From contig NZ_JASISR010000034.1 in NCBI RefSeq assembly GCF_030063245.1, positions 1 to 36,986 on the forward strand: 36,986 nucleotides of DNA, read 5' to 3'. Position 1 is the first letter of the stretch, and each line of letters begins with the position of its first letter. This stretch comes from Paenarthrobacter sp. PH39-S1. Lineage in GTDB: Bacteria; Actinomycetota; Actinomycetes; Actinomycetales; Micrococcaceae. Made by a program: the position numbers and the translations under genes. Shown here piece by piece: positions 5,203-20,226 of the stretch. The notes below the pieces were generated by a model. That model was not told where the DNA came from and made no database searches. It saw nothing but the letters and a program-made list of their open reading frames with translations.

Positions 5203-5301
5203 GGGCATAGTCCGCGCCCTGCGAGGTAGCCGGGCCACTAAGCTGGCCTCAGGGATAGTCGGTCTTGGTCCCCGTCCCGATACACCACGGAAGGGTGATC
5301 C

Positions 5302-6003: not shown

Positions 6004-6018
6004 CGCCGGTAGCGCCGG
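6001..6018. repeat. 9-bp tandem duplication over a stop codon
   Basis: TAGCGCCGG occurs twice back to back. The first TAG is the stop codon of the GntR gene. No function is suggested. Confidence 0.5.
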
Positions 6019-6056
6019 TAGATTCAACTCTCCTGACAGGTCAAGCAGTTCAGTCA

Positions 6057-7043
6057 CTACCGGCTGAGGTCAACCCGTAGCCCCAGACCCTGTTCGATGG
6101 CCCCGTCGTACAAGAGCCTCCCGATGGCCAGATCCAGCATGCCGATGCCCACGGAGTTGAACAGCGTGATATCTGCGTCGCTGATGCGGCCCGGGATCCG
6201 TCCGGCCACCACCTCGCCGAGTTCCCCCTGGACATCCGCCAGCGACAGCGCGCCCTCCGCCACAGGAATGAGCAGGTCGCCGGACTTCTCCGCCGCTGTG
6301 GCACGGCTGTCGACGAAGATCCGCGAGCGCACCATCCCTTCCGTGTCGATCTCGCGGTGATCCGGACGGGGCCGGGAGCCCACTGCGTTGATGTGCTGGC
6401 CGTCCCGGAACCAGCGCCCGTGCACCACCGGCTCCGTGGCGGGCGTCAGCGTGCACACCACATCGGCCGTCTCGAAGACTTCCCCGGGGGAGCCGACCAC
6501 GGTGACGGACAGCCCGTGGCGGAGCACCTTCTCGCGGAACCCGTCCGTCGTCGTCGTCGACCGGGACCATACGACTACTTCCTCGATCGGTAGCACGGCG
6601 AGCATCGCCTCCACATGCGCAACCGCGAGCGCGCCCGCACCCACCAGCCCCAACACCCGACTGTCCGGCCGGCCCAGGTGTCTGCTGGCCACGGCGCTGG
6701 CGGCGGCCGTACGCACCCGTGTGGGCACACGTCCGTCCAGAATGGCCAGCGTCTCCCCCGTGATTTGCGAGGCGAGCAGGATCGTGGAGCGCTGAGTGGG
6801 CAGCCCGGCACCGCGGTTGGCAGGGATGTCCGCCAGCAGCTTCACGGACGCCAGCTGCTGCTCGTCGGCAAGAGCGGTCATCGGCACGAAGCGCGCGTCC
6901 GAGCCGGGCAGGTGGAGCGACGTCGGAGCGGGCTGGTGGGCGGTGCCCCTGGTGATGTCACCGAAGGCGAGTTCGACGGCGGCGATCGTGGCCTGCATGT
7001 CCGCCAATACGGCGAGGTCCGAGGCGGTGAGGATCAGGGTCAT
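6057..7043 (-). CDS. Ornithine cyclodeaminase / mu-crystallin family protein
   Basis: A 328-residue NAD(P)-dependent enzyme. Family members include ornithine and alanine dehydrogenase-type deaminases, ketimine reductases and imine-forming enzymes. The family arginine motif is present (VPTRVRTAAASAVASRHL), then the Rossmann dinucleotide site LGLVGAGALAVAHVEAM (about residues 129-145), INAVGS, and the C-terminal FNSVGIGMLDLA corresponding to the catalytic KSVG...D motif. ATG 7043 is preceded by AAGGAAC. It starts 21 bp after the upstream amidohydrolase stop, so the two are probably co-transcribed. In context it may reduce or deaminate an imine or amino-acid intermediate released by the hydrolases. 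The exact reaction is open. Confidence 0.88.
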   Translation of the reverse strand: MTLILTASDLAVLADMQATIAAVELAFGDITRGTAHQPAPTSLHLPGSDARFVPMTALADEQQLASVKLLADIPANRGAGLPTQRSTILLASQITGETLAILDGRVPTRVRTAAASAVASRHLGRPDSRVLGLVGAGALAVAHVEAMLAVLPIEEVVVWSRSTTTTDGFREKVLRHGLSVTVVGSPGEVFETADVVCTLTPATEPVVHGRWFRDGQHINAVGSRPRPDHREIDTEGMVRSRIFVDSRATAAEKSGDLLIPVAEGALSLADVQGELGEVVAGRIPGRISDADITLFNSVGIGMLDLAIGRLLYDGAIEQGLGLRVDLSR

Positions 7044-7064
7044 GGCGGGGTTCCTTGGATCGGG

Positions 7065-8552
7065 TCAGGCAGGGACGTGGGTCATTTGAGGTTCGCTGCG
7101 GGGAAAAGCCGGCGGAAAGAGTTCATCGGCACTGCGCCGGTGCATGTCCCGCTCGGAGTAGGCGTGCCGCATGCGGTTGAACAAGGTCTGGGCCCGGGCA
7201 CGCAGCGCCGGAAGGTCGATGCCAGGCACCGCTCCGTCACGCACCACCATCCGGCCGGCCACCACGGAGTGCGTGACGGAGCGGGCGCTGCCGTTGAGCA
7301 GCAGCGTGCGGACCGGGTCATCGAGCACGCCGTCGCGGAAGTCGGCCAGCGAGAACGCGACCAGGTCGGCCTGCGCTCCGGCCTCCAGCCGGCCCAGGTC
7401 CGGCCGGTGCAGGGCCCGGGCGCCACCGAGCGTCGCCGCGTCGAAGTAGCGCTCGACCGGTGCAGCGTCGGCGGCGCCGTCCACGATCTTGGCCAGGTGC
7501 ACGCCTGTGTCCATGCCGCGCACCAGGTCCGGTGGGAACGAGTCCGTGCCCAGGCACATGTTAATGCCCGCGGCCAGGTAGGCGCCGAACGAGTGCAGGG
7601 CACTGCCGTACCGGAAGGATGTCTGCGGGCAGTGGATGATGGAAGCCCCCGCGTCGGCCAGCACGGCCAGGTCACCGTGGTCCTCCCCCGCAACGAGGGG
7701 GTTACGGTCGATCATCATGCCATGGGGAATCAGCAAGTTAGCACCGAGCAGCCCGGTGCGCTCCAGCAGCTCCAGCGGCGTCACGCCGTAGCGCTCTTGG
7801 ATCAGCCTGCGCTCCAGCAGCCCCTGGAGCGCGTGCAGGCGCACCAGCACCTGACGAGATCCGGCTGCAGCCGCTGTGGCGGCCATCAGCTCTTCGGTAA
7901 GAGTCTCGATCCGGCACGGCAGCAGCACGCCCGTGACCAGCGGATCGTCGAGCTCCTGCGTGTAGTCCAGGAACCGCTTGGCCTCGGCCAGCCCGGCGTT
8001 GCCCTGCTCCTCATCGAAGGCTACCGCGCGTTCACCGTCCGGGCCGACGACGTTCACGCCCGAGCGGTAGGCCGGACCGAGGAATCCGCGCAGGCCGATC
8101 CGGCGGGAGGTGGCGGCCATGCCGACCAACTCTTCGTAGCTTTCCGCCCAGGCGCTGTGCACTTCCGACGCTATTGGCATGTAGGTCGTGATCCCGTGCA
8201 GGGCCAGCTGGACCAGTGCGAATTCGCGCACCACCTGGCGCTCCTCGGGCGTGAATACGTCGTGGCGTCGGTGGTCGAAGTAGTTCTGCGACCACTGAAA
8301 CCCCTCGGACCGGTCGACGGGGGACCATGAATCCAGGATGAGGTGGTCGATGTCCGTCAGCGCGTCTAAATCGATCAGCCCCGGCGTGACCAGTGACGCG
8401 CCCAGCTCCAGCGTCTCGTCGAAGGAACCCTCCCGGAGCGGCCCCGCGTACACGATCGAATCGTCCTCATAGACAACTTGGCCACCGGAAACCAGCACAT
8501 GCCGTCCGCTCTCGTGGCCCAGCACATGGTCTGCGCGGATACATGTTCGCAC
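7065..8552 (-). CDS. Amidohydrolase / chlorohydrolase-like protein lacking the canonical HxH motif
   Basis: A 495-residue protein of the SsnA/TrzA/AtzB-like branch of the amidohydrolase superfamily. The fold landmarks are present: VTPGLIDLDALTDIDHL (end of strand 1), VRLHALQGLLE, IPHGMMI, IIHCPQTSFRYGSALHSFG and NMCLGTDSFPPD, closing with LGRLEAGAQADLVAF. The strand-1 HxH metal pair is replaced by D-L-D-A-L, so metal binding must differ or be lost. GTG 8552 is chosen over GTG 8567 because a strong AAGGAGG (8558-8564 on this strand) lies six bases before it and inside the longer reading. It heads a two-gene operon with the OCD-like gene and is divergent from the DUF3100 gene. Substrate unknown. 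Confidence 0.82.
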   Translation of the reverse strand: MRTCIRADHVLGHESGRHVLVSGGQVVYEDDSIVYAGPLREGSFDETLELGASLVTPGLIDLDALTDIDHLILDSWSPVDRSEGFQWSQNYFDHRRHDVFTPEERQVVREFALVQLALHGITTYMPIASEVHSAWAESYEELVGMAATSRRIGLRGFLGPAYRSGVNVVGPDGERAVAFDEEQGNAGLAEAKRFLDYTQELDDPLVTGVLLPCRIETLTEELMAATAAAAGSRQVLVRLHALQGLLERRLIQERYGVTPLELLERTGLLGANLLIPHGMMIDRNPLVAGEDHGDLAVLADAGASIIHCPQTSFRYGSALHSFGAYLAAGINMCLGTDSFPPDLVRGMDTGVHLAKIVDGAADAAPVERYFDAATLGGARALHRPDLGRLEAGAQADLVAFSLADFRDGVLDDPVRTLLLNGSARSVTHSVVAGRMVVRDGAVPGIDLPALRARAQTLFNRMRHAYSERDMHRRSADELFPPAFPRSEPQMTHVPA

Positions 8553-8610
8553 GCTTACCTCCTTCACAGACGTGGACCGAATGGCTTACGTCCTCCAGTA
8601 TAACCGCATC

Positions 8611-8738: not shown

Positions 8739-8750
8739 TTTGGTATACAA
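8739..8750. promoter_or_regulatory. Putative GntR operator, copy 2
   Basis: TTTGGTATACAA, 24 bp before ATG 8774, is the exact reverse complement of 3887-3898. It lies where it could block transcription of the DUF3100 gene. A 12-bp identity between two promoters of one functional module is unlikely to be chance. Confidence 0.55.
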
Positions 8751-8773
8751 CTTCAAGGAAGACAGTGAGAGAC

Positions 8774-10143
8774 ATGAGCAACTCCATCGGCACCCGGCAC
8801 CCTGCCCCCGCCCCCGGGATCACCCGCGGCCACTGGACCACCGTCATCATCCTGTCGGTGGCGGTCTCCGCCGTCACCGTTCTCATCGGCACAGTGAAAA
8901 TTCAGCTGGGACCGGCCGCCGTCGTCCTCTTTCCCATCATCTGAGCGGTGGTCCTCGGCGCGATCCTGGGCACGCAGCGCTTGCGCCCCATCTCTGCTGC
9001 AGCGCGGTCCGTGGCCACCCTGCTGCTGGAGATTGGCATCATCGTCTTCCTGGCCCGGCTCGGCACCCAGATCGGCCCGACCCTGATGAAGCTCGGCGTC
9101 ATCGGTCCGGCCATAGCGTTGCAGGAGGTAGGCCATATCTTCGGCACCGTGATCATCGCGCTGCCGGTCGCCGTCGCCCTCGGCCTGGGCCGCGTCGCCA
9201 TCGGCGCCACCTGGTCGATCGACCGCGAATCGTTCCTGGCCTACGCGATCCAGCGCTTCGGCGTCCGCTCGCCCGAATACCGCGGGGTGTTCTCCGTCTG
9301 GCTCCTCGGCAGTCTGTTCGGCGCCGTGTTCATCTCCCTGCTGGCCGGCTTCCTCGGCGGCCTGTCCATCTTTGACCCCCTGGCCCTGGCGCGGGACTTG
9401 GCCTGGGCTCCGCATCGATGATGCTCGGCGGCGCCGGCGCGCTGTCCCTGCTTTACCCGAGCCAGGCACCCGAGATCATGGCCCTGGCCGCCCTGTCCAA
9501 CCTGGTGACCAACATCGTCGGCTTTTACGCCGGGGTATTCCTGTCGCTGCCGCTATGCCGCCGCCTCTACACGTTCTGGAGCCGGCTCTTCGGCAGGGAC
9601 GACGACGGCCGCCGGGTCGGGCGGGCAACGCAGGCAGCTGCCGGGCCCGCAGATCCGGCAGCCCAACCTGCGCCGGACGCGCCCGTGGCAGCAGAGGACC
9701 CCAAGGTGCCCCTCTCCCGGCGGACGCAGCTGCTGGCGTACGGCGTTGTGGGCGTGTCCGGCCTGCTGATGAACCTTTTGGGGACCAAGGCCTTCGTCCC
9801 TGGCGACCTGCTCGGCATGGTCATCCTGCTGCTGCTCACGGCCCTGTCATTCCGGCTGGCGAAGTGGCTGCCTACCGTGCCCTCGAGCGTGTGGGTGCTC
9901 GGCATCGCCACGGTACTCTCGGCCCCGTTCCTGCCCACCTCCCAGCTGTTCGCGACCCTGACCGGCAACCTCGACGTCATCCTGATGGGCGTGCCCACCC
10001 TGGCGCTGATCGGCCTCACGGTGGGGCGCGATATCCCGGCGTTGAAGGCGCTCAGCTGGAAGGTGGTCATCGTAGCGCTGATCACCTATAGCGCCTCGTT
10101 CATCGCCGCCGCAGCCCTGGGCCAGACCGTCCTGCACCTCTAG
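8774..10143 (+). pseudogene. DUF3100 membrane protein, broken by a nonsense codon and a frameshift
   Basis: DUF3100 proteins are polytopic membrane proteins, probably transporters, often near amidohydrolases. ATG 8774 starts a hydrophobic N-terminus (WTTVIILSVAVSAVTVLIG) that stops at TGA 8942-8944 after LFPII. The same frame resumes with AVVLGAILGTQRLRPIS, the DUF3100 signature, then EVGHIFGTVIIALP and GATWSIDRESFLAYA up to about 9398. There one G is missing; the next frame continues GLGSASMMLGGAGALSLLYP, LSNLVTNIVGFYAGVF, a proline/alanine-rich linker (about 9590-9710) and five or six more helices to TAG 10141-10143. Repairing a Trp codon at 8942 and one base near 9400 restores about 456 residues. 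It may have imported the substrate of the neighbouring amidohydrolases; that is an inference. Confidence 0.82.
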
Positions 10144-11147
10144 TGTCCTGCCCCTGCTAGGACAACCGCCGTCGTCATTGCGCACCTGAGGGCGTGGCCT
10201 CCTTTCAGTCGCTCGAATGTTCCGCGTAAGCCCTGCGCCCAATTTCGGGCTCGACGTGCCACGTTGCGCCGAGTCGTTCGTGCACGGCGCGCCAGTTGGC
10301 CAGGGAGGCGGCTTCGCATGGGGTGATCAGCGAGTAAGGCGTCCAGCCGGGCGAAACAACGGTCCCAGCCGGCCCCGGCCAGCGCGGCCTGGTCGCGGTC
10401 GGTGAAGGTGTGTGTGAACGCGAGCACGCATCCGGTACCCTCGGGCCGCAGCTCGAACCGCAGGGTTCCCTCCCCTTGCCAGGAACCCGTCAGTAAACGG
10501 GGCGCCTCACTCTCCCCGACCTCAAGGCCGCCGGGGAACCACTGGCGCAGCTCGGCGGGATCGGTCAGGGCCTGCCACAGCCGCCCGATCGGCTGATCGT
10601 AGCGACGTTCCAGCCGCAGGACCGGGCCGTCCTCGAGTACGGGGCCCCGGAAGGCCAGGCCCGCGATGAACTCGCGGCCGGGAGCGGGATCGAGCCCGAA
10701 TTGCGCCGCGTAGCGCTCGTGCCGCTCCCCGATCGGTACGTGGGCGCTTTCTTCGGACAGGTTACGCCCGCCCAGGTAGGGCTCGAGCCGGTCGAGGTAG
10801 CAGGCCCATCCGGCTGCCGTCTGGGCTGCAGCCCCACCATCGTCAAAGACGTGGGTGAACACCAACACGCATTCGCCCTGCTCCTTCTTGAGCTCAAATC
10901 GGAACAGCTGGGCGCCGAAGGTCCATTCGATCCGCTGCGGCGCAGTGAGTTCGGTGATTTGTCCGGTTTGTCCTCCCGCTTCGAAAGTCTCGCCCGCTTC
11001 AGGGGTCCAGTCGGCCGCAGCGGGAAACCACTTTCCGAGCTCGGCAGGGACGACGACGGCGCGCCACACCCGCCCGATCGGATGCGCCAGTCGGCGCTCA
11101 AACCGCAGCGCCGCGCGACCGTCGCTGGTCTTCAGAGTGACGTTCAT
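10140..11147 (-). CDS. Tandem SRPBCC (AHSA1-like) domain protein with frameshifted C-terminus
   Basis: The 335-residue reading has two copies of the AHSA1/SRPBCC ligand-binding fold. Domain 1 (about residues 8-135) has FERRLAHPIGRVWRAVV and WTFGAQLFRFEL; domain 2 (about 178-270) has LERRYDQPIGRLWQALTDP and a repeat of the FAFTHTF-type strand. From about residue 275 (DHP, near base 10320) the frame turns into Arg-rich sequence. In the neighbouring frame a sensible tail appears (EAASLANWRAVHERLGATWH, ending EHSSD) with a TGA at 10205-10207, so one extra base near 10317-10324 displaced about 40 residues. Both domains are otherwise intact. It is the last gene of the leftward operon, 12 bp after the GlcD-type gene; its role there is unknown. 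Confidence 0.8.
   Translation of the reverse strand: MNVTLKTSDGRAALRFERRLAHPIGRVWRAVVVPAELGKWFPAAADWTPEAGETFEAGGQTGQITELTAPQRIEWTFGAQLFRFELKKEQGECVLVFTHVFDDGGAAAQTAAGWACYLDRLEPYLGGRNLSEESAHVPIGERHERYAAQFGLDPAPGREFIAGLAFRGPVLEDGPVLRLERRYDQPIGRLWQALTDPAELRQWFPGGLEVGESEAPRLLTGSWQGEGTLRFELRPEGTGCVLAFTHTFTDRDQAALAGAGWDRCFARLDALLADHPMRSRLPGQLARRARTTRRNVARRARNWAQGLRGTFERLKGGHALRCAMTTAVVLAGAGH
10144..10164. terminator. Small hairpin between convergent genes
   Basis: TGTCCT and AGGACA form a 6-bp perfect stem around a 9-nt loop just after the DUF3100 stop, pointing at the convergent SRPBCC gene. It has no T tract and is a weak terminator candidate. Confidence 0.25.
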
Positions 11148-11159
11148 TGTGGGTACTCC

Positions 11160-12551
11160 TCAGACAGTCGACGATTCCACGAGCGGCGCCAGCACCGGAT
11201 CAAACACCTTGCCGGGATTGAGCAGGTTGTGCGGATCAAATACCGCCTTGATCTGCCGTTGCAGCCCAAGCTGGATGCCGCCGAGTTCGTCGCCGAGCCA
11301 GCGCCGTTTAAGAAGTCCGATGCCATGTTCGCCGGATAGCGTGCCGCCCAGCGCCAAGGCGTGGGCGAAAAGTTCCTCTGCGGCGGCCCAAATGGCGTCC
11401 GGGACCGATTCACCACTGAAGACGAAGCTCGGATGAAGATTGCCGTCCCCCGCATGGCACGTGGTGGGAATCGTGACACCATACTTGATTTCAAGGTCGG
11501 AGATTTTGGCAAACGCCGCAGTCATTTGAGACCGGGGCACGGCGATGTCTTCAACCAGCAAGGTCCCCATGGCCTCCAAGGACGGGAACACCTGCCGCCG
11601 CACGTCCACCAGGGCCTTGGCAGTCTCCGGATCGGTCGTAATTTCCACCCGTCCCCCGGCATCGCGGATGATCCCGGCCATCTTAGAGGCCTCTGATTCC
11701 GCGCCGGGGCCATCACACTGGAGAAGGAAGTAGGCATTGCCTCGTAAGACCAGATCCACGCCGGTATAGCGACTCACACATTCCAGCGTGCGCCGGTCCA
11801 GCAACTCCATCATTGCCGGCTGCAGTCCGGCAGCCGTAATGGCGGCCGAGGCCGCAGCGGCCTCGGCGATCGAATCGAAGAAGGCGGCAATAGTGGCCAC
11901 CGTGCCGGTTACCAGAGAGCGCAGTTTCAGCGTGGCCTCGACGATCACGCCCAAGGTACCCTCGGAGCCGACCATCAACGCACACACATCGTAGCCGGTG
12001 ACACCCTTGACCGTGCGGTGTCCCACCGAAATCAGCTGGCCGTCGGCCAGGACGACCTTCAACGCCAGGACGGCTTCGCGGGTGACGCCGTATTTAGCGC
12101 ACAGCAGGCCGCCGGAATTCATCGCAATATTCCCGCCAACGGTTGAGATGTCCTTGCTGGCTGGATCCGGCGGCCACCACATGCCCTGCTTTGCCAGTTC
12201 ACGGTTCAGGTCACCATTGAGGATGCCGGGCTCGACGACGGCGAGCCGGTTATCGGGTGAGACCTCCAAAATCCGCGTCATGGACGTCGTGGAGAGTATG
12301 ATTTCACCGGCTCCGGCAATGGCGCCGCCGGAGAGGCCGGTGCCGGCGCCCCTGGTGACCACTGGGGTGCGATGCTCGTGGGCAATTCTGCACACGGTCT
12401 GCACATCGTCGACGGTGCGGGCCTGCACCACCGCCAGTGCCGTGCCGGAGGCCAGATGGCCGGAGCGGTCCGCCCGGTACATCTGCAAGACCGAAGGATC
12501 AGTCTGTACCAGGCCGGGCAACGCTGCGGACAAGTGGTGGACGACATCCAT
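11160..12551 (-). CDS. FAD-linked oxidase, GlcD / D-lactate dehydrogenase type
   Basis: A 463-residue flavoenzyme of the vanillyl-alcohol-oxidase superfamily that oxidises D-2-hydroxy acids to 2-keto acids. The FAD-binding domain shows TPVVTRGAGTGLSGGAI, the long WWPPDPASKDISTVGGNIAM stretch, KYGVTREAVLALKVVLADG and TGYDVCALMVGSEGTLGVI. The C-terminal domain has the family signatures TCHAGDGNLHP and LSGEHGIGLLKRRWL and ends with FDPHNLLNPGKVF. ATG 12551 follows GAGGGA on this strand; an upstream in-frame extension lacks coding character. It sits about 100 bp downstream of an FMN hydroxyacid oxidase gene. The two would cover D and L hydroxy acids, so the pathway probably passes through a 2-hydroxy acid. 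Confidence 0.9.
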   Translation of the reverse strand: MDVVHHLSAALPGLVQTDPSVLQMYRADRSGHLASGTALAVVQARTVDDVQTVCRIAHEHRTPVVTRGAGTGLSGGAIAGAGEIILSTTSMTRILEVSPDNRLAVVEPGILNGDLNRELAKQGMWWPPDPASKDISTVGGNIAMNSGGLLCAKYGVTREAVLALKVVLADGQLISVGHRTVKGVTGYDVCALMVGSEGTLGVIVEATLKLRSLVTGTVATIAAFFDSIAEAAAASAAITAAGLQPAMMELLDRRTLECVSRYTGVDLVLRGNAYFLLQCDGPGAESEASKMAGIIRDAGGRVEITTDPETAKALVDVRRQVFPSLEAMGTLLVEDIAVPRSQMTAAFAKISDLEIKYGVTIPTTCHAGDGNLHPSFVFSGESVPDAIWAAAEELFAHALALGGTLSGEHGIGLLKRRWLGDELGGIQLGLQRQIKAVFDPHNLLNPGKVFDPVLAPLVESSTV

Positions 12552-12649
12552 GCTTTCCCTCTTTTCGTTTTCGTTGGATACTGCAGGCGTGTCCCGCCAG
12601 GGGCTCCGACCGCCGCGCTTCGCAGGCAGACAGAGCACCGATAGTGCCC

Positions 12650-13864
12650 TCAGCAGCGCGGTGCCAGCAGGCCTGGTCCGGCTGCACGCAGCTCCTCGAC
12701 GCTGGCCATTCCCAGCAATTGGAGTGTCCGGCGGAACTGACCGGTGAGCAGGTCCGCAACATGTTCCACCCCCTCCTGGCCGCCGGCCACCAGCCCCCAC
12801 AGGTAGGCGCGCCCCACCATGCAGGCGTCAGCTCCAAGGGCGATGGCGGTGGCGACGTCCGAACCATGCCGGATGCCCGAATCCACCAGAATGGCGAAAT
12901 CTTCACCGACGGCGGCCCGGACCGGCCGAACAAGTTCCACCGGGGCCAGGGTCCGGTCGAGCTGCCTGCCTCCATGGTTGGACAAATGCACACCGTCCAT
13001 GCCCAGGCTCTGGGCGCGTTTGGCGTCGGCGGGGCCGATCGGCCCCTTCAAGACCAGCTTTCCGGGCCACGCCTGACGCAGGGTGTCCAGGTCCTCCCAC
13101 GTCACGCCGGGGTCAAACTGTTGGCCGATGTTTTCAACGCTGTAGCCGCTGGACCGGTCCTCCACATTGGCAAATGTCAGGGCCGGACCAGCCAGCATGC
13201 CCGCCCAGTATCCGGGTCGGCTTCCAATGTCCGCCAGGCTCCTCAGCGAGAGGGCTGGGGGAATGGTCAGGCCATTTCGCACGTCACGTAACCTATTACC
13301 GGTGACCGCCGTATCCACGGCGACTTCCAGCACGCGGTACCCGCTGGCCCACGCCCGCCTGACCAGCTCGAGCGTCAGGGCACGATCTTTCCAGACATAC
13401 AGCTGAAACCAGAGGTCCGCAGAGTTCACGCCTGCGGCTTCGGCCAAATCCTCCAATGACGTGCTGGCCATGGTGGAGAGGACATAAGGAATGCCGGCCT
13501 TTGCGGCCGCCCGCGCTACGGCAGGCTCCCCGCGCGGATCGATCATCCTGGTGTAGCCGGTGGGCGCAAAACCCAGCGGAGCGGCGGTTTTGCGCCCCAG
13601 GATCGTAGCGGAAATATCCGGGTTACCGACATCGGTCAGGACTCTGGGAAGGTAATGGTAGCGACCCAGTGCATCTATGTTGTTCCGCAACGAGCCCTCA
13701 CTGTCCGCTCCGCCGTCGACATAGTCGAAGACAGGCCGCGGCAAGCGGCGTTTGGCGGCCAGCCGGACATCATCGATGGTCCGGCACCGCTCCAACCGCC
13801 GGCTGGTCCGGTTCCCGGAGCGCGGCTTGATCGAGACAAGTTTCAGGGCCTGTGAAACTTTCAT
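12650..13864 (-). CDS. FMN-dependent alpha-hydroxy-acid oxidase/dehydrogenase (LldD family)
   Basis: A 404-residue flavoprotein oxidising L-2-hydroxy acids (lactate, glycolate, mandelate or similar). The TIM barrel carries FDYVDGGADSEGSLRNN, PLGFAPTGYTRM, VLSTMASTS, WFQLYVWKDR, VDTAVTGNRLRDVRNG, LVLKGPIGPADAKRA with the FMN-contacting Lys, and the active-site SNHGGRQLDR with the catalytic His and substrate-binding Arg, then ILVDSGIRHGSDVATAIALG and MVGRAYLWGL. The start ATG overlaps the upstream IclR stop by four bases (ATGA), implying translational coupling. Its presence in an operon with an amino-acid ABC transporter, opposite an aminotransferase, suggests catabolism of a hydroxylated or deaminated amino-acid-like compound. 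Precise substrate unknown. Confidence 0.9.
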   Translation of the reverse strand: MKVSQALKLVSIKPRSGNRTSRRLERCRTIDDVRLAAKRRLPRPVFDYVDGGADSEGSLRNNIDALGRYHYLPRVLTDVGNPDISATILGRKTAAPLGFAPTGYTRMIDPRGEPAVARAAAKAGIPYVLSTMASTSLEDLAEAAGVNSADLWFQLYVWKDRALTLELVRRAWASGYRVLEVAVDTAVTGNRLRDVRNGLTIPPALSLRSLADIGSRPGYWAGMLAGPALTFANVEDRSSGYSVENIGQQFDPGVTWEDLDTLRQAWPGKLVLKGPIGPADAKRAQSLGMDGVHLSNHGGRQLDRTLAPVELVRPVRAAVGEDFAILVDSGIRHGSDVATAIALGADACMVGRAYLWGLVAGGQEGVEHVADLLTGQFRRTLQLLGMASVEELRAAGPGLLAPRC

Positions 13865-14598
13865 GCGGTGGCCTTCCGGGTCAAGGTTCCCAGCAGCTGC
13901 GTCAAGTGGCTGGCAGAGTTCATGACGTGCGCTGCAACGGCGTCGGCGTCAAGGGCCGAACCGAGCATGTAGCTGACGCCGATGGCGCCCGGCCCGCCGG
14001 AGGGGCTAAAAACCGGCGCAGCAATGCAGCGGACACCGGAAGCTGTTTCGCCGTCATCGAGGCTGTAGCCGCGCTCCCGCACCTGGGCAAGCTCGGCCAT
14101 GATCCCGCCGTCCCGCCCTTCGTCTGCACCGGCCGGCAGGTGAGCTGCCAGGTCGTTCCCCGGCAGCCAGGCCAAGGCTGCCTTCCCTACCGCCGTGACA
14201 ACGGCCGGCAGTCTGGCTCCCACGGAACTTGCCAGTTTGATGCCCAGGCCGGGAGGGTCCTGTTTGCAGAGGTAGACGGCGTCGGTTCCGTCGAGAACCG
14301 CATAGTGCGAGGTGATGCCCAGCTCTTTCGTCAGACCCGCCAGTTGGGGGATGACAATGTCGACGGCGTTATTGGAGCGCAGGTGCGCGGCACCGACTTC
14401 GAACGCCCGCAGCCCGATGGAGTAGGACGCGTGCTCGGTGACTTCCAGGAACTCCCGGCTGGCCAGCGCTCGAAGAATGGCATGTGCGGTGCTTTTAGGG
14501 ATCTCCAGTTGCTCCGCTATCCGGGTCAGCGGCAGCGGTTTGTCCGAGCCCGATAGTAGTTCGAGGATCTTCAGGGCTCGTAAAACCGAGGTGCTCAT
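13861..14598 (-). CDS. IclR-family transcriptional regulator
   Basis: A 245-residue regulator. The N-terminal winged helix (about residues 4-60) reads VLRALKILELLSG, LTRIAEQLEIPKSTAHAILR and LEVTEHASYSIGLRAFEVG; the C-terminal effector domain includes YAVLDGTDAVYLCKQ, LPAVVTAVGKAALAWL, ERGYSLDDGETASGVRCIAAPVF and IGVSYML, all typical of IclR. It lies inside the leftward operon, 20 bp after the ABC ATPase gene, and overlaps the next gene by ATGA. It most likely controls the divergent promoter region at 17289-17623, where two related palindromic sites are found. IclR proteins may repress or activate; the direction cannot be read here. Confidence 0.9.
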   Translation of the reverse strand: MSTSVLRALKILELLSGSDKPLPLTRIAEQLEIPKSTAHAILRALASREFLEVTEHASYSIGLRAFEVGAAHLRSNNAVDIVIPQLAGLTKELGITSHYAVLDGTDAVYLCKQDPPGLGIKLASSVGARLPAVVTAVGKAALAWLPGNDLAAHLPAGADEGRDGGIMAELAQVRERGYSLDDGETASGVRCIAAPVFSPSGGPGAIGVSYMLGSALDADAVAAHVMNSASHLTQLLGTLTRKATA

Positions 14599-14618
14599 CT
14601 GTTCCTACTCCTCGCCTA

Positions 14619-15386
14619 TCAAAGGACCGCACTGAGGAACGCCCGGGTGCGCTCCTCTTGGGGGTTGCCCAAAACGTCGTGCGGCTGGCCCCGCTCAACG
14701 ACGCAGCCATTATCAATGAAGACTATTCCGTCCGCGACCTCACGGGCAAAGCCCATCTCATGCGTCACCACCACCATGGTCATCCCGGAACTGGCAAGGT
14801 CTTTCATCACGTCCAGGACCTCCCCCACCAATTCGGGGTCGAGTGAGGAGGTCGGCTCGTCGAAAAGCATCAGCTGCGGTTCCATCGCAAGTGCCCGGGC
14901 GATGGCGACTCGTTGCTGCTGGCCGCCGGACATGGCATAGGGGTAGGCATGTGCCCGGCTCCCCAGCCCCACGCGATCCAGCAGCGCCATGCCCTGTTCG
15001 GTTGCCTTCTTTTTAGAGATTCCTTTGACCTGCACCGGACCCTCTATGACATTTTCCAGCGCGGTCTTGTGGCCGAAGAGGTTGAAATGCTGGAACACCA
15101 TGCCGATATTGGCCCGTTCCCGGCAGACGTCCTTGTCCCTTAGCTCGTATAACCTGTCCCCGTTCTGGCGGTAACCCACCAGCGAGCCGTTGACCGATAG
15201 GCGTCCGCCGTCGATCTTCTCCAGATGGTTGATGCACCGCAGAAACGTGGACTTACCCGATCCCGAGGGACCAATGATGCACAGCACCTCACCACGGAAA
15301 ACCTGCAGGTCAATCCCCTTGAGGATCTCCAGGTCGCCGAATGATTTGGTGACCTGCTCGGCATGGACGATCAGTTGCTTGCTCAT
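14619..15386 (-). CDS. Amino-acid-type ABC transporter ATP-binding protein (GlnQ/HisP-like)
   Basis: A 255-residue cytoplasmic ATPase energising uptake. It has Walker [10 protein letters not shown] (about residues 39-47), a Q-loop in [15 protein letters not shown], the ABC signature [15 protein letters not shown], Walker [15 protein letters not shown] and the switch His in [14 protein letters not shown]. These are the sequence idioms of polar amino acid importers. Its ATG overlaps the stop of the permease gene by four bases, so the two are translationally coupled. With the permease and lipoprotein it forms a complete PAAT-family importer. Confidence 0.93.
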
Positions 15387-16309
15387 GCGGTCCTCCTGAG
15401 GGCCAGGTTTTTCCGAAGCCGGCGCGCAAAACTAGGTCTGGATCCCGGCGCACTGCGGCCGAGCCGGTCCTCCAGCATCTGCTGCAGGACGCTGAACACG
15501 GTGGTTAGGGCCAGGTACCAGATGGTAACGGTGAAGAGCAGCTCGATCACCTTGAAATTAGCGGTGTAAATCTTGTTCGCCGAGTGCAGGAGTTCGCTGA
15601 AGGAAATGGTGTAGGCCAGCGATGTGAACTTCAGGCACGCGATAAATTCGTTGCCCAGCGGCGGAATGATCACGCGCATCGCCTGTGGCAGGACGATCCT
15701 GCGCATGATTTTGGCGCGCGGCATTCCGATGGCCGAGGCAGCTTCGCGTTGGCCGTGGTCGACAGAGAGGATGCCACCGCGCACGATTTCCGAAATGTAA
15801 GCACCCTCATTTATGCCCAGGCCCAGCAGGGCCGCCAAGAACGGCGTCATCAGCGTGTTCATGGGCATGGACACCAGGCCCGGGATCGTGAAGGTATTGA
15901 AAATGATCGCAAGGTTGAACCAGATCAGCAGCTGTACCAGAAGCGGAGTACCCCGGAACAGCCAAACATACCCGCCCCCGACCCAGCGCAGGACCGGATT
16001 TGGCGACTGGCGCATCACTGCGGTCAGCACGCCAAGGACCAGTCCCAACGCCATGGACAGCAGCAGGAGCAGCAGCGTATTGCGCACTCCCTCAAGGATT
16101 CCGGGGACCGTTAAGTACTCGACCACCGCGGCGTAATCGATGTCAGCAACCACGAATGCCCGTACGAGCAGGGCCAGCAACACCAGAATCACGATGGCCA
16201 GCACCCACCGTCCGGGGTATTTCAGCGGGACAACTGTCAGCGCCCTGGCGGACGTTGGCACCGCGGGCACTTCGCGCTCGGTCTCAAGCTTGTCTTCGAC
16301 TGCCACCAC
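15383..16309 (-). CDS. Amino-acid-type ABC transporter permease
   Basis: A 308-residue inner-membrane permease of the HisM/GlnP type. After a hydrophilic N-terminus it has a single helix ([19 protein letters not shown]) and then a core of about five helices. The motif [13 protein letters not shown]-like [17 protein letters not shown] and the EAA loop [20 protein letters not shown], which docks the ATPase, are clear. Start GTG 16309 follows AAAGGAG. The same reading suggests a single permease forming a homodimer, since only one permease gene is present. It lies 41 bp downstream of the substrate-binding protein gene. Confidence 0.92.
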
Positions 16310-16349
16310 GTGCTCCTTTTCCTGTTGTCAGTTCATCGGGCACGGCGGG

Positions 16350-17288
16350 CTACTTAGGACTGATGCCGGCCGTTACGGGGTTCACCGTGGACTCGGTGAT
16401 GCCGATGCTGCCCAGATCCCACTTCTTCAGCACCGCCTGGTACGAGCCGTCGTCGATGATGGCCTGCCAAGCCTTCCCCAGGGCATCACGCAACGTTGAT
16501 TCCTTCTTGCTGAAGACCATCGAGAAGAAGCGTTTCTCAACTTGCAGCCCACTAACGACCTCAAGTTTGCCCTCGGACTGCTGGGCGAAGTAGGCGGCCG
16601 TCGGGTAGTTCTCCAGCAGTGCCACAGCCTTGCCTTGTTTTACCGCGAGCTGCTCGGCGGCGTTGCCGTCAAAAGTGAGCACGTCGATGGGCTGTTTGCC
16701 GGCATCGGTGCACACCTTGGATTGGGCCTCGAGATACTGTGGCTGAACGCCTCCGCGCACGGCCGCGATGGGCTTTCCACAGAGGTCTTCAACCGAGGCG
16801 AGTCCGGTCGGATTACCCTTTTGGACGACAAAACCTTGGGAGGACTGTAGATATGACACCATATCGAAGGTCTTTTCGCGTTCAGCCGTGTCATTGACGG
16901 CACCAAAGATGACGTCGTACCTCTTGGTGGTCAGTGCCGGCAGCAGAGTGTCAAAACTGGCGTTGTTCCAGGTGAAGGAGACGCCGAGCTGCTTTTCCAG
17001 CTCCTTGGACAACTCGACTTCGAAGCCGGCCAGCGGGCCTGAGGCCTCGTAGTACTCGAAGGGCGGGTAATCGATGGCGGAGCCAATTTGGATGGTGCCC
17101 GCCTTCTGGACAGACTCCGGCAGCGACTTGTAAAGCGGTGCCGTGCTGTCCGCAGCCTGGTCCTTCACCGCCCCGTTCACGTCACCGGGGGTGGCAGAAC
17201 TGCACCCGGACAGGATGAGGCCGGCAAGGACAGGGAGGGCGAATAGGGCTCTGTTGCGGATTTTGTGGCGGGGATCGATGGCACTCAC
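16350..17288 (-). CDS. ABC transporter substrate-binding lipoprotein, amino-acid type
   Basis: A 312-residue extracytoplasmic solute-binding protein (SBP family 3). The signal peptide ends in the lipobox ILSGC, with C29 as the lipid-anchored residue. The mature fold shows IQIGSAIDYPPFEYYE near the N-terminus, LAGFEVELSKELEKQLG, FDTLLPALTTKRYDVIFGAV and LCGKPIAAVRGGVQ, characteristic of polar amino acid binders. The ligand is unknown. GTG 17288 follows GGAGG seven bases upstream. It is the first gene of the leftward operon (SBP, permease, ATPase, IclR, two hydroxyacid oxidases, SRPBCC), so expression is set by the promoter and inverted repeat at 17337-17396. Confidence 0.92.
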   Translation of the reverse strand: MSAIDPRHKIRNRALFALPVLAGLILSGCSSATPGDVNGAVKDQAADSTAPLYKSLPESVQKAGTIQIGSAIDYPPFEYYEASGPLAGFEVELSKELEKQLGVSFTWNNASFDTLLPALTTKRYDVIFGAVNDTAEREKTFDMVSYLQSSQGFVVQKGNPTGLASVEDLCGKPIAAVRGGVQPQYLEAQSKVCTDAGKQPIDVLTFDGNAAEQLAVKQGKAVALLENYPTAAYFAQQSEGKLEVVSGLQVEKRFFSMVFSKKESTLRDALGKAWQAIIDDGSYQAVLKKWDLGSIGITESTVNPVTAGISPK

Positions 17289-17336
17289 GGGGCATCCTCC
17301 AAGGGGTGGGCAACTGAAAACTCGCTGAAAAATTCA

Positions 17337-17360
17337 CATATACGAACAGCGTTCGATATG
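17337..17360. promoter_or_regulatory. Inverted-repeat operator for the ABC operon (probable IclR site)
   Basis: Perfect arms CGAAC and GTTCG around AGC (17343-17355) extend outward into CATAT and ATATG with a single-base bulge on the left, giving about ten paired positions per arm. It lies just downstream of the leftward -10 element, a position suited to repression. A diverged relative lies at 17493-17518. Confidence 0.6.
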
Positions 17361-17368
17361 AGAGAAAG

Positions 17369-17396
17369 AGTATGGTGTGGTCTGCGTCACTGTCAA
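17369..17396 (-). promoter_or_regulatory. Promoter of the leftward ABC/hydroxyacid oxidase operon
   Basis: On the minus strand a perfect -35 TTGACA (17396-17391) and a -10 CATACT (17374-17369, 4/6) are separated by 16 bp. The predicted transcription start falls next to the inverted repeat at 17337-17360, about 75 bp before the GTG start. Confidence 0.55.
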
Positions 17397-17478
17397 TGGG
17401 TGGGCCGAATATGACGGACCGCCTTAAGTGCCGCCTGGCGTGAACTCCTCCCGGGCCATTGACTTACCGGAAACGGCT

Positions 17479-17518
17479 TTGTAACGTGTTCACATATTCG
17501 TATAGCGATCGTATATAG
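17479..17518 (+). promoter_or_regulatory. Rightward promoter overlapping a second operator-like site
   Basis: TTGTAA (17479-17484) and TATAGC (17501-17506) are spaced by 16 bp. They overlap 17493-17518, whose reverse complement (TATATACGATC...ATACGAATATG) resembles the 17337-17360 site in both the ATATACGA start and the CGA-ATATG end. This suggests one regulator controls both divergent promoters. The promoter match is moderate. Confidence 0.4.
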
Positions 17519-17623
17519 GAACAAACGCGGGGGGTGGCCGGAACGAGAGCCCGGGACGGCACCGCCGCCCACACCCCACCTGGCGCCTCTACACCACATT
17601 CCCCTAGCCGGAAGGCCCACCTA

Positions 17624-19744
17624 ATGACCATTGCTGAACGCCCGTGGCTGAACCGTCTGCAGCCCTATCAGCCGGGGAACCGAGCCCCGATCGCGGACGG
17701 ATCAATGGCATCTAATGAATCCCCCTTGGGAGCCAGTCCCGATGTCGCGGCGGCAATCTGCGGTGCGCTGGCGCAATCACATCGTTACCCCGACCCGCTG
17801 GCGCAGGAATTGAGGTCAGAGCTCGCGTCGCTGCATCACGTTGCCCCGGACCAGATCCTCATCGGCAATGGTTCCGATGAGCTGATCTTCCTGCTCGCCT
17901 CGGCCTACCTTGCCCAAGGAGGCCATGCCGTCTGCGCAGCACCCCCTTATCAGATCGACAGGATCAGTACCTATGCGGTCAACGCCCGCCTGACACAGGT
18001 GCCGTTGCGCGATTGGGCACATAATCTGGAAACGATGGCTGCCGTTGACGCGGATATCGCCTATATGGTTAACCCGCACAATCCGACGGGAACGGTGTGC
18101 ACACCGGCTGATATCCGCAAATTCGTGGCGCGAAGCCCGGCGCGGCTCGTGGTCATTGATGAGGCGTATATCGATTTCACCGATGATCCGAACGCCCAAA
18201 CTTCCATCCCGCTCGTGGCGGGCGGAGGGGTTGCCGTCCTGAGGACCTTCTCCAAGATTCATGGACTGGCCGGGCTGCGGGTGGGCTACCTCGTGGCGGA
18301 GCGGGAGGTCATCGCGACACTGCAAAAGATCCGGCCGCCGTTTTCCGTCAGCTCGGTGGCGCAGGCTGCTGCCCTGGCGGCTCTGCGGGACCCCGCACAC
18401 CAACTCGCCGTGCGCGAACACACGCTGCGCATCCGCGCCGAAATGGTCCTCCTGCTTGAACAGACCGGTTACCCGGTTATCCCTTCCCAGGCGAACTTTC
18501 TCCTCGTCCAGACCATTGACGAGACGGAGTTCGTCTCAGCGGTGCTCAGGCATGGAATCTCGGTGCGCCCGGGAAGCAGCCTGGGCCTACCCGGGACCGT
18601 GCGGATCAGCGTGCCCACCCAGCGCGGGCTGGAACTGCTGCGAGGTGCCCTGCCTCCCGTCCGAGAACTGCTACAACCGACCGCCGCTGCCAGCGGCCCT
18701 GTTAGAGGAGAGTCCATGTTTATCAAGAATGCCTGGTACGTCATCGCTTCATCTGACGAAATTGTCCACGAACCGATGAAGCGCACCATACTCGGTGACG
18801 ACGTCGTGCTCTACCGAAAGCTCGACGGCGGCGTCGTCGCCCTTGACGACCGGTGCGCCCACCGCGCATACCCACTCTCGGCAGGCCGGCTTGTCGGCGA
18901 CAACATCCAGTGCGGCTACCATGGGTTCGAATACAATTGCGCCGGAATCTGCGTCCGGGTCCCAGCTCAGGAACGCATCCCGGAACGTGCGGTGGTGCAG
19001 GCCTTTCCCGTCGTTGAAGCTCACCGCTGGGTGTGGATATGGATGGGGGATCCGGAAAAAGCCGCGGCAGTTCCCGTGCCCGATACGCACTGGATGACGG
19101 ATCCGGCCTGGGACCGCGTGACCCACACCAGGCTCTTTCACAGCAGCGCGGATTTGATCCACGACAATCTGCTGGACCTTACCCATGAGAGTTTCCTGCA
19201 CCAGTCCACCATCGGCGATGAGGCCGTCTACGAAAACGGCATCACCGTCGAAGTTGATGTACAGACGGTCAGCGTTGACCGATGGATGCCAGGGTGCCAC
19301 CCGTCACCCCTGTTTGAAAAGGCCACCGGGTTGACTTTGGTGGACCGCTGGCATACTACCGAATTCCAGATCCCCAGTTTGCACGTGATCCACGCCGGTG
19401 TGGTGGAGCCCGGCGGGCGCCGCGAAGACGGACATCTGCTCACGGTGCTCAATGCCATCACTCCGGAAACCGAGAACACCGCCTGGTACTTCTACGCATT
19501 CTGCCGCGACTTCGCCGTTGGTGACGAGGCGATGAACGAGCTGCTCCAACAAAGCCTGGGCGAAGTCTTGACCGAGGACGAAGACGCCTTGGCTCTGCAG
19601 CAGGAGCGAATGGAAACCCGTCCCGCACGTCTTCCGGATGTGCTGATCGCCCAAGATGCCGGGGTCGCCAAGGCCCGGAGGATCCTGGCGCGGATGCTGG
19701 CCGCAGAAGCCAAGGAATTGGCCAATGCGGGGCAGCTGCCGTGA
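17624..19744 (+). CDS. HisC-like aminotransferase fused in frame to a Rieske oxygenase
   Basis: One uninterrupted 706-residue frame. Residues 1 to about 350 are a class I/II PLP aminotransferase of the histidinol-phosphate aminotransferase type: SNESPLGASPDVAAAI, ILIGNGSDELIFLLASAY, MVNPHNPTGTV, VVIDEAYIDF and TFSKIHGLAGLRVGYLVA with the PLP lysine. Residues 365-706 are a VanA-like Rieske oxygenase (described separately at 18716). ATG 17624 follows GGAAGG at 17610-17615. No stop separates the domains; the linker reads LLQPTAAASGPVRGES and its DNA contains a Shine-Dalgarno sequence and a TAG in the next frame. So this may be a real fusion, or two genes joined by a one-base change. It is divergent from the ABC operon and probably co-regulated with it. 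Confidence 0.85.
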   Translation: MTIAERPWLNRLQPYQPGNRAPIADGSMASNESPLGASPDVAAAICGALAQSHRYPDPLAQELRSELASLHHVAPDQILIGNGSDELIFLLASAYLAQGGHAVCAAPPYQIDRISTYAVNARLTQVPLRDWAHNLETMAAVDADIAYMVNPHNPTGTVCTPADIRKFVARSPARLVVIDEAYIDFTDDPNAQTSIPLVAGGGVAVLRTFSKIHGLAGLRVGYLVAEREVIATLQKIRPPFSVSSVAQAAALAALRDPAHQLAVREHTLRIRAEMVLLLEQTGYPVIPSQANFLLVQTIDETEFVSAVLRHGISVRPGSSLGLPGTVRISVPTQRGLELLRGALPPVRELLQPTAAASGPVRGESMFIKNAWYVIASSDEIVHEPMKRTILGDDVVLYRKLDGGVVALDDRCAHRAYPLSAGRLVGDNIQCGYHGFEYNCAGICVRVPAQERIPERAVVQAFPVVEAHRWVWIWMGDPEKAAAVPVPDTHWMTDPAWDRVTHTRLFHSSADLIHDNLLDLTHESFLHQSTIGDEAVYENGITVEVDVQTVSVDRWMPGCHPSPLFEKATGLTLVDRWHTTEFQIPSLHVIHAGVVEPGGRREDGHLLTVLNAITPETENTAWYFYAFCRDFAVGDEAMNELLQQSLGEVLTEDEDALALQQERMETRPARLPDVLIAQDAGVAKARRILARMLAAEAKELANAGQLP
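18716..19744 (+). CDS. Rieske non-heme iron oxygenase, VanA-like (module with its own start)
   Basis: Read from ATG 18716 this is 342 residues, the normal size of vanillate O-demethylase-type oxygenases. The Rieske 2Fe-2S ligands are C47, H49, C66 and H69 (CAHRAYPLSAGR...CGYHG); the mononuclear iron site is D154, H157 and H162 in NLLDLTHESFLH. The start FIKNAWYVIASSDEI is a typical family N-terminus, and GAGGAG at 18705-18710 lies five bases before the ATG, so independent initiation is plausible inside the longer frame. The enzyme would oxidise or demethylate an aromatic or N/O-methyl substrate and needs an electron-transfer reductase; none is visible nearby. Substrate unknown. Confidence 0.85.
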   Translation: MFIKNAWYVIASSDEIVHEPMKRTILGDDVVLYRKLDGGVVALDDRCAHRAYPLSAGRLVGDNIQCGYHGFEYNCAGICVRVPAQERIPERAVVQAFPVVEAHRWVWIWMGDPEKAAAVPVPDTHWMTDPAWDRVTHTRLFHSSADLIHDNLLDLTHESFLHQSTIGDEAVYENGITVEVDVQTVSVDRWMPGCHPSPLFEKATGLTLVDRWHTTEFQIPSLHVIHAGVVEPGGRREDGHLLTVLNAITPETENTAWYFYAFCRDFAVGDEAMNELLQQSLGEVLTEDEDALALQQERMETRPARLPDVLIAQDAGVAKARRILARMLAAEAKELANAGQLP

Positions 19745-20226
19745 GGCTGGTCTTGAGGGCAGGGTCCCATCGCGAGGTTGCCGACGGGGCCCTGGAAGTG
19801 GCCGCCTCCCCCGACACGCCGCGCCGGGAACGGTGGCAATGGGACATCCGCGTGTTTGAAGCCGCCACTGCGCCGAATGGAAGTCAGCGCCAGGGCGTTC
19901 CGGTCAGCGCCGACCTTGGGCGTGGCGATGGCTCGGCATCGCGCATCGAAGTGCGCGCCGACCCTGAACTGGTCCGTGCGGAAATTCAGGTACGTAGCGT
20001 CGGCACCGGCTTCGACGTCGAACGAGAGTTGCAGGAGGTGGTGGCCGTCATCGTCGGATCCGGCTCGGCGCTGGCCGAAGGCCGTCGCCGGCTTCGCGAA
20101 TTGGATGCGCTCATTTTGGAGGGCGATGATCCATACTTCCTGCGGATCGAGCCAGGGTCTGACATCGATGCCACCGTCGCCGTGATTCGACTCAAGGGCA
20201 CCGGCTCCATCGGCTGGGTGCCCTGA
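19741..20226 (+). CDS. Hypothetical protein, coupled to the Rieske gene
   Basis: A 161-residue protein I do not recognise. GTG 19741 overlaps the preceding TGA by four bases (GTGA), which implies co-translation with the Rieske oxygenase. The sequence is soluble, without signal peptide or membrane helices; it begins MRLVLRAGSHREVADGALEV and has an acidic, arginine-rich middle (LRELDALILEGDD) and a C-terminus IRLKGTGSIGWVP. No cysteine clusters, flavin or ferredoxin motifs are present, so it is not the missing reductase. It ends nine bases before the convergent SQR-like gene's stop. Confidence 0.6.
   Translation: MRLVLRAGSHREVADGALEVAASPDTPRRERWQWDIRVFEAATAPNGSQRQGVPVSADLGRGDGSASRIEVRADPELVRAEIQVRSVGTGFDVERELQEVVAVIVGSGSALAEGRRRLRELDALILEGDDPYFLRIEPGSDIDATVAVIRLKGTGSIGWVP

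Follow-up and report, generated by a model that had tools for sequence, protein, structure and literature searches.

A conserved actinobacterial gene module with a Rieske oxygenase, a HutD-like protein and an amino-acid-type importer, and its possible link to histidine-like substrates

Gene content of the locus

This study concerns a nine-gene module on contig NZ_JASISR010000034.1 of Paenarthrobacter sp. PH39-S1, the whole of which (36,986 bases) is referred to as the window in the following. According to open reading frames and family profile matches, the module spans window positions 11160-20226, with six genes on the minus strand and three divergent genes on the plus strand. It combines an ABC (ATP-binding cassette) importer of the polar-amino-acid type, a regulator and two dehydrogenases dependent on flavin adenine dinucleotide (FAD) or flavin mononucleotide (FMN) with a pyridoxal-phosphate (PLP) aminotransferase, a Rieske oxygenase and a small protein:

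11160-12560, minus strand: FAD-linked D-2-hydroxyacid dehydrogenase-like protein (GlcD-like); PF01565 and PF02913, motif HAGDGN; kept in the module relatives
12650-13864, minus strand: FMN-dependent L-2-hydroxyacid dehydrogenase/oxidase-like protein (LldD-like); PF01070 (E = 1.1e-124), motif SNHGGRQ
13861-14598, minus strand: IclR-family regulator, presumed local repressor; PF09339 and PF01614
14619-15386, minus strand: ATPase of the polar-amino-acid ABC importer; PF00005, GlnQ/EhuA/TcyN-like, below the cutoffs of those models; both ATPase motifs present
15383-16309, minus strand: permease of the importer; PF00528, TIGR01726 above cutoff
16350-17288, minus strand: substrate-binding lipoprotein of the importer (SBP_bac_3); PF00497, Arg137 and Asn227 conserved
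17624-18715, plus strand: HisC-like PLP aminotransferase; PF00155, motif SKIHGLAG
18716-19744, plus strand: VanA/DdmC-like Rieske non-haem iron oxygenase; PF00355 and PF19112, own Shine-Dalgarno sequence and ATG
19741-20226, plus strand: predicted short HutD-like cupin of 161 amino acids; fold matches, no Pfam match

An earlier reading of the window, made from the sequence alone and referred to here as the original prediction, had already recognized these reading frames and families, and its calls are borne out by the profile matches. Its extent of 10205-20226 covers the module correctly, but its start does not hold, as position 10205 falls inside a non-core gene for an AHSA1/SRPBCC protein (10140-11147).

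The importer has the full set of expected components, namely an SBP_bac_3 binding protein, a HEQRo-type permease and a GlnQ-type ATPase. The regulator contains both the HTH_IclR and the IclR_C domain, and the oxygenase has both domains and the iron-ligand motifs of VanA/DdmC-type Rieske proteins (C47-x-H49...C66-x2-H69 and D154-x2-H157-x4-H162), which are invariant in six orthologues. The proteins show the motifs expected of their families, to which we give the usual meanings: two Cys-His pairs and D-x2-H-x4-H in the oxygenase, the PLP-lysine motif in the aminotransferase, SNHGGRQ in the FMN enzyme, HAGDGN in the FAD-linked enzyme and two motifs in the ATPase.

By contrast, the aminotransferase, the FMN and FAD enzymes and the regulator reach no function-specific cutoff among the NCBIfam models shown, so that we name them only as '-like'. 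The aminotransferase scores 263 bits with the HisC equivalog TIGR01141 (cutoff 276.55), the FAD-linked enzyme 374 bits with the GlcD equivalog TIGR00387 (567.9), the FMN enzyme 299.2 bits with its best NCBIfam model, L-lactate dehydrogenase NF008398 (376), and the regulator 120 bits with the equivalog for BhcR, the regulator of the beta-hydroxyaspartate cycle (NF045644; 350). These missed cutoffs rule out HisC, GlcD, LldD and BhcR proper. The source genome (4.65 Mb in 135 contigs), which belongs to the same genus as the relatives G098 and G056, encodes four further homologues of the aminotransferase with 31-36% identity.

Conservation of the module

Rieske proteins at least 78% identical to that of the window occur in 6 of the 395 Micrococcaceae genomes searched, the window's own included, and all six share the divergent arrangement of the nine genes. 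A scan of a species-genome collection, which was pattern-seeded and not exhaustive (G209 was not returned) and which gave 26 loci, added two close ones. The first, in Planosporangium thailandense, carries all nine genes on one strand together with an additional reductase; its Rieske protein is 75% identical to that of the window, its aminotransferase 69% and its two dehydrogenases 47 and 51%. The other, in Segeticoccus rhizosphaerae (Rieske 80%), shows six of the nine genes on one strand, on a contig that ends 122 bases past the match.

Across these loci, the Rieske gene follows the aminotransferase gene in eight of eight cases, and both dehydrogenases accompany the aminotransferase in all seven loci open to testing (the window, L033-L037 and L056), although in Planosporangium they are less well conserved than aminotransferase and Rieske protein. 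The racemic hydroxy-acid intermediate that the original prediction had suggested from these two enzymes is no more than a possibility. The IclR orthologues in the module relatives are 57-96% identical, with the same operator motif in all. When 394 genomes of the class and 396 of the order were searched, two candidates per genome being scored, only Rieske relatives came up and no further aminotransferase of the module kind at E-values up to 1e-100, so that the module is rare in this sample.

The retention of the gene set in two gene orders across three families argues for a joint function, and the nine genes very probably form one co-regulated catabolic unit. The original prediction had proposed such a unit, and both the two arrangements and the shared operator described below speak for it; it had also named a lack of co-occurrence among the homologous genes as the observation that would count against it, and the genes do co-occur.

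Operators and promoters

The divergent promoter region between the binding-protein and the aminotransferase genes contains the following elements:

17333-17346, no strand: operator O1, a perfect palindrome, TTCACATATACGAA; from promoter alignment and pattern counts
17369-17396, minus strand: promoter of the minus-strand operon (importer, regulator, dehydrogenases), TTGACA-16-CATACT; from a consensus scan
17459-17487, plus strand: likely aminotransferase-Rieske promoter, TTGACT-17-TAACGT; read by eye on the alignment
17489-17502, no strand: operator-like site O2a, one mismatch; near the presumed plus-strand transcription start
17508-17521, no strand: operator-like site O2b, one mismatch; the aminotransferase-side site is perfect in G209, G050 and G228

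The pattern TTCNNATATNNGAA occurs at up to one mismatch three times in the window, always in this divergent promoter; 0.25 sites would be expected, and none of 100 shuffled sequences reaches three. An alignment of the six divergent promoters shows palindromic sites conserved on both sides, and the shared inverted repeats on which the original prediction had built its co-regulation are thus real. Exact sites number 13 across the six genomes (backward control pattern: 1), nine of them in this promoter; one of the four elsewhere lies on contig C50 of the source genome, in a stretch matching an ornithine-cyclodeaminase-like gene. Furthermore, the perfect operator TTC-N2-ATAT-N2-GAA is found upstream of the binding-protein gene in eight of eight module loci, which for Planosporangium and Segeticoccus means upstream of the matched gene with inferred start codons. 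It is absent at up to two mismatches from the promoter stretches tested of L091, L094 and L099, three loci that carry Rieske relatives but not the module.

The consensus scan gave the minus-strand promoter alone and did not pick up the plus-strand one. The first hexamer of the minus-strand promoter is invariant in the six-promoter alignment, the second is variable. With O1 just downstream of this promoter and O2 near the presumed plus-strand start, the arrangement would suit a repressor.

The Rieske clade and its HutD-like partner

To place the oxygenase in a wider context, we compared 41 distinct loci with Rieske proteins at least 49% identical to that of the window with 24 VanA-like control loci below 45%. 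In 38 of the 41 loci and in none of the controls, the Rieske match is followed at a distance of 0-175 bases by the start of a same-strand gene for the HutD-like protein; the family profile was iterated on the 41-locus set itself, and its E-values are descriptive. The gene was not found in G560 and G509, and the Segeticoccus contig ends too early. The controls instead have a reductase match within 300 bases in 15 of 24 cases. In the window, no VanB-type reductase is found within 4-5 kb of the Rieske gene, and the gene families of the module include none.

A tree of 65 Rieske proteins places the 41 in one clade with a support of 100/100, to be read with the warning of the tree program that the long branches leading to the VanA-like rows of Micrococcaceae could be misleading. 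On this tree, three changes account for the distribution of the partner, which can be taken as a single gain with two losses. From this association, it is probable that the Rieske and the HutD-like protein work together.

The partner itself had been listed as an unknown protein in the original prediction. We now predict it to be a short HutD-like cupin, on the basis of its modelled fold and of faint family matches in its relatives. An AlphaFold2 model computed from six sequences reached a predicted local distance difference test score of 80.3 and a predicted template modelling score of 0.82 for the best of the models, with the fifth at only 32.5. In a Foldseek search of the PDB, all six matches below an E-value of 0.001 are HutD structures (1yll, 5fcc and 5v00), with E-values of 4.1e-5 to 2.2e-4, a probability of 1.00 and template modelling scores of 0.58-0.63 of the query. 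At the sequence level, the HutD family PF05962 matches the relatives in Planosporangium (1.7e-4, 22.2 bits) and G879 (2.6e-4, 21.6 bits); it is matched by 5 of 14 family members at E-values up to 0.5, any other family by at most two. Searching PDB sequences with a profile of the 161-residue family gave a single match, at E = 0.8, which is unrelated. The source genome encodes an ordinary HutD elsewhere (143.6 bits, over the Pfam cutoff). What HutD, an accessory protein, does in histidine use is still a matter of debate.

Two loci of the clade show further arrangements. At L091 (G879), the Rieske gene (62% identity) is found with genes for a HutD-like protein and a reductase beside a sodium:solute symporter gene, without a match to the module aminotransferase or binding protein; genes for a P450 and an aromatic-amino-acid lyase are found no more than 10 kb away. 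At L095 10700-12334 (G956), HutD-like protein and reductase share one frame of about 544 residues; the HutD-like frame has 152 residues in the near relatives L087 and L088, so that a stop codon may have been lost.

Sister modules

Many of the more distant members of the clade belong to what we call sister modules, with Rieske proteins 49-57% identical to that of the window and a HutD-like gene. One of them lies on contig C22 of the source genome (L038), L039 being another example. In the ten Micrococcaceae sister loci examined first, importer and reductase genes are always present and the regulator is mostly of the GntR type; importer genes are matched in two of eight sister loci outside this family. 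A DoeB-like hydrolase is found in 18 of 31 sister loci (223 bits for the one scanned, cutoff 402.7). The sister module of the source genome instead has a DoeB2-like hydrolase of the M20 type (266 bits, cutoff 550), relatives of which (at least 50% identity) occur near G376 and G879. These are two different hydrolase families, and the single member scanned of each matches a model for N-acetyl-diaminobutyrate deacetylase below cutoff. The core common to all these modules is the Rieske protein with its HutD-like partner, usually together with an import system, and the downstream enzymes vary. The window Rieske protein has no reductase nearby and could be served by that of C22, which shares 69% identity with the L039 reductase.

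Proximity to histidine utilization genes

In Planosporangium, the module is followed by hutH (641 bits), hutU (907 bits) and an allantoate amidohydrolase gene (598 bits), all above cutoff. Likewise, the sister Rieske gene of G007 has matches to AllC, hutU and hutH at a distance of about 4-9 kb, and hut genes thereby adjoin the Rieske clade in two distant lineages. Among the 34 genomes with both a clade Rieske gene and hutU, the two are on the same contig in 14 and within 50 kb in seven, at a chance expectation of 0.8; for the VanA-like controls, hutU is on the same contig in 4 of 11 cases and within 50 kb in none. The source genome carries a second, complete and divergent hut-like cluster on contig C48 (L121 7670-19872), with hutH-, hutU-, hutI-, hutF- and AllC-like genes. 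In favour of a histidine link, this cluster is itself coupled to an importer of the polar-amino-acid type, a HisC-like aminotransferase and an IclR-type regulator. A divergent hutU of the C48 type is present in G098 and G056, too.

The original prediction had considered an amino-acid-like substrate, 'perhaps methylated or aromatic'. Import of an amino-acid-like acid is supported, and the HutD-like identity of the partner together with the proximity of hut genes tilts the choice towards a histidine-like compound.

The binding protein and its ligand

Import of an amino-acid-like acid, as originally proposed, agrees with both the family and the binding site of the substrate-binding protein. Arg137 is conserved in all nine binding proteins aligned (seven module orthologues and the outgroups L121 and L039), and we take it to be the ligand of the alpha-carboxylate, by analogy with LAO/HisJ structures. 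All seven module orthologues have Asn227, preceded by Glu226, where both outgroups have Asp, presumably the ammonium ligand in this column; phmmer introduces a gap and thereby sets the Glu against the Asp of AncQR. These residues would fit a carboxylic acid whose amine is absent, modified or held otherwise, that is, a hydroxy or N-alkylated acid as well as a plain amino acid.

Other features of the window

In the assembly of the window, the aminotransferase frame runs without a stop into the Rieske gene and yields a merged frame of about 706 residues, in which the Shine-Dalgarno sequence and the ATG of the Rieske gene are retained. In the two nearest relatives, G098 and G056, the genes are separate and the Rieske ATG is preceded by a Shine-Dalgarno sequence, and three more distant Micrococcaceae genomes likewise have two genes and not a fusion. 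Compared with G098 and G056, the window has small deletions at the end of the aminotransferase gene, a single-base one of which accompanies the loss of the stop. This one-base difference and the separate genes in the relatives lead us to reject a natural aminotransferase-Rieske fusion; a mutation and an assembly error are both possible.

Upstream of the module, the following gene is accessory rather than core, being present in only one (G056) of the five relatives compared:

10140-11147, minus strand: two-domain AHSA1/SRPBCC protein; PF08327

Beyond it, at about 8750-10143, a gene for a DUF3100 membrane protein is apparently broken, with an internal stop and a frame change that split the family profile over two frames. 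A block of amidohydrolase, GntR, ornithine-cyclodeaminase-like and chlorohydrolase-family genes at 3982-8567 recurs with 57-71% identity at L050 16021-19998, beside the G376 sister module. The window contains no Rfam matches to structured RNAs, and PADLOC gave no defence-gene matches for the two proteins checked.

Proposed function and alternatives

Taken together, we propose that the module is substrate-induced and breaks down a histidine-like (imidazole) amino or hydroxy acid, which may be N-methylated, and would give this reading a probability of roughly 45% on what the sequences convey. The IclR protein would repress both divergent operons from O1 and O2, which are conserved beside the promoters, until an inducer is present, and the ABC importer would take up the acid, as its family and the conserved carboxylate-binding Arg suggest. 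The Rieske protein, the HutD-like cupin and an NAD(P)H reductase, perhaps that of the sister module on another contig, may then oxidize or N-demethylate the imidazole part, N-demethylation in particular being an unlikely choice. Finally, the HisC-like aminotransferase and the L- and D-hydroxyacid dehydrogenases could interconvert the amino, the keto and both hydroxy forms, to provide one amino acid for the hut pathway.

Several observations weigh against this proposal. The window itself contains no recognizable hut gene, and in G000, G098, G056 and G228, hutU is on a different contig from the module. Six of the seven hut-proximal genomes come from one genus and are hence not independent, so that the printed binomial value of 1e-5 overstates the association, and the seven other same-contig genomes have the Rieske gene and hutU at least 148 kb apart. 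As for the HutD-like protein, no member reaches the PF05962 gathering cutoff of 25 bits, the window protein has no match at all, and the structural matches have large root mean square deviations of 6.4-8.8 Å. The aminotransferase is below the hisC cutoff and about equally near to a phenylalanine aminotransferase (PDB sequence scores: 161 bits for HisC 3ffh, 159 bits for the putative phenylalanine aminotransferase 4r2n). The relatives VanA and DdmC act on methoxy-aromatics, which would fit an aromatic amino acid, too. With Asn instead of Asp at the ammonium position, the binding protein points away from plain alpha-amino acids such as histidine and towards a ligand of the hydroxy type or with a modified amine. 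Lastly, the DoeB-like deacylase in 18 of the 31 sister loci has no evident meaning for an imidazole substrate.

Some of these points lead to other substrates. The module could serve an O-methylated aromatic amino acid, for instance O-methyltyrosine or 3-O-methyl-DOPA, whose ring the Rieske protein would O-demethylate, while the aminotransferase would form the arylpyruvate and the dehydrogenases would handle the L- and D-aryllactates. The best PDB sequence match of the Rieske protein is indeed DdmC, the dicamba O-demethylase (162 bits), and the aminotransferase matches 4r2n and 3ffh about equally, but this scheme gives the HutD-like partner and the hut proximity no role, and the module Rieske clade is separate from the same-family VanA-like enzymes; we consider it unlikely. 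About as improbable is a betaine- or opine-like substrate, namely an alpha-amino acid with N-methyl or N-alkyl groups that would be dealkylated at its alpha-nitrogen, with the dehydrogenases acting on the released acid or its hydroxy forms. Such a substrate would agree with the Asn for Asp in seven of seven module binding proteins, which suggests an altered or absent amine, and with the two scanned hydrolases of sister loci, whose matches to the DoeB and DoeB2 models, though below cutoff, point to modified amines. On the other hand, no dimethylglycine- or sarcosine-type gene was recognized among the module families, and no betaine oxygenase is among the PDB sequence matches of the Rieske protein.

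It is also conceivable, if rather improbable, that importer, aminotransferase and dehydrogenases carry out ordinary hydroxyacid and amino-acid salvage with the Rieske pair as a passenger: all families are common, and the dehydrogenases and the aminotransferase might well suffice without the oxygenase. Yet in L035, L036, L037 and L056, the four relatives from other genera, the Rieske protein is the best-conserved catalytic enzyme, and its gene follows that of the aminotransferase in all eight loci. That the genes are mere chance neighbours without a joint function is barely credible, given their retention over three families, in two gene orders and with one operator; we found no point in its support.

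The strongest new point is the Rieske clade with its HutD-like partner, whereas the substrate is the weak point, for which a histidine-like compound is our best estimate. Beyond the module itself, one may speculate that a shortened HutD-like cupin became, by recruitment, the near-obligate partner of an actinobacterial VanA-like Rieske clade, and that the pair oxidizes or N-demethylates imidazole amino or hydroxy acids such as methylhistidines as a new route for histidine derivatives into the hut pathway, although we regard this as unlikely. The open-access PMC literature, judged by titles and opening abstract lines, yielded no description of a Rieske-HutD-like pairing and nothing relevant on a Rieske enzyme acting on methylhistidine or as an N-demethylase in connection with histidine and betaine. 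It likewise gave nothing relevant on the combination of Rieske protein, hydroxyacid oxidase, aminotransferase and IclR regulator, or on that of Rieske demethylase, aminotransferase and ABC transporter in Arthrobacter. Within that literature, the combination appears new as a pathway, as the original prediction had supposed.

Methylated and oxidized histidine compounds are to be expected in animal waste and soil protein, and if such a compound is the substrate, the module would fill a gap among the known catabolic routes. Being tied to a single oxygenase clade, the HutD-like protein has a defined partner and offers a small test system for the role of the fold, and the operator with its gene set provides a ready reporter for finding the inducer.

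Comparison with known systems

The module Rieske protein shares the Rieske and VanA_C domains and the iron-ligand motifs with DdmC and VanA, but falls into a separate 100/100 clade from the VanA-like rows. In place of the VanB-type reductase gene of the VanA systems, it has a HutD-like gene downstream, with an amino-acid importer and an aminotransferase gene adjacent. The HutD-like protein, in turn, has the same fold by Foldseek as HutD of PA5104 (1yll) and of P. fluorescens SBW25 (5fcc/5v00); its sequence similarity is only distant, and its 161 residues compare with 184-195 in the HutD chains. Moreover, it is encoded behind a Rieske gene and outside any hut operon, with adjoining hut genes only in some relatives.

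Compared with the sister modules, the module has an IclR instead of a mostly GntR-type regulator, as well as an aminotransferase and a pair of hydroxyacid dehydrogenases, which are unmatched in the ten Micrococcaceae sister loci. The hut-like cluster on C48 resembles it in its polar-amino-acid importer, HisC-like aminotransferase and IclR-type regulator; it differs in that no Rieske match was found in the 20 kb searched and in that its aminotransferase is only 35% identical to that of the module.

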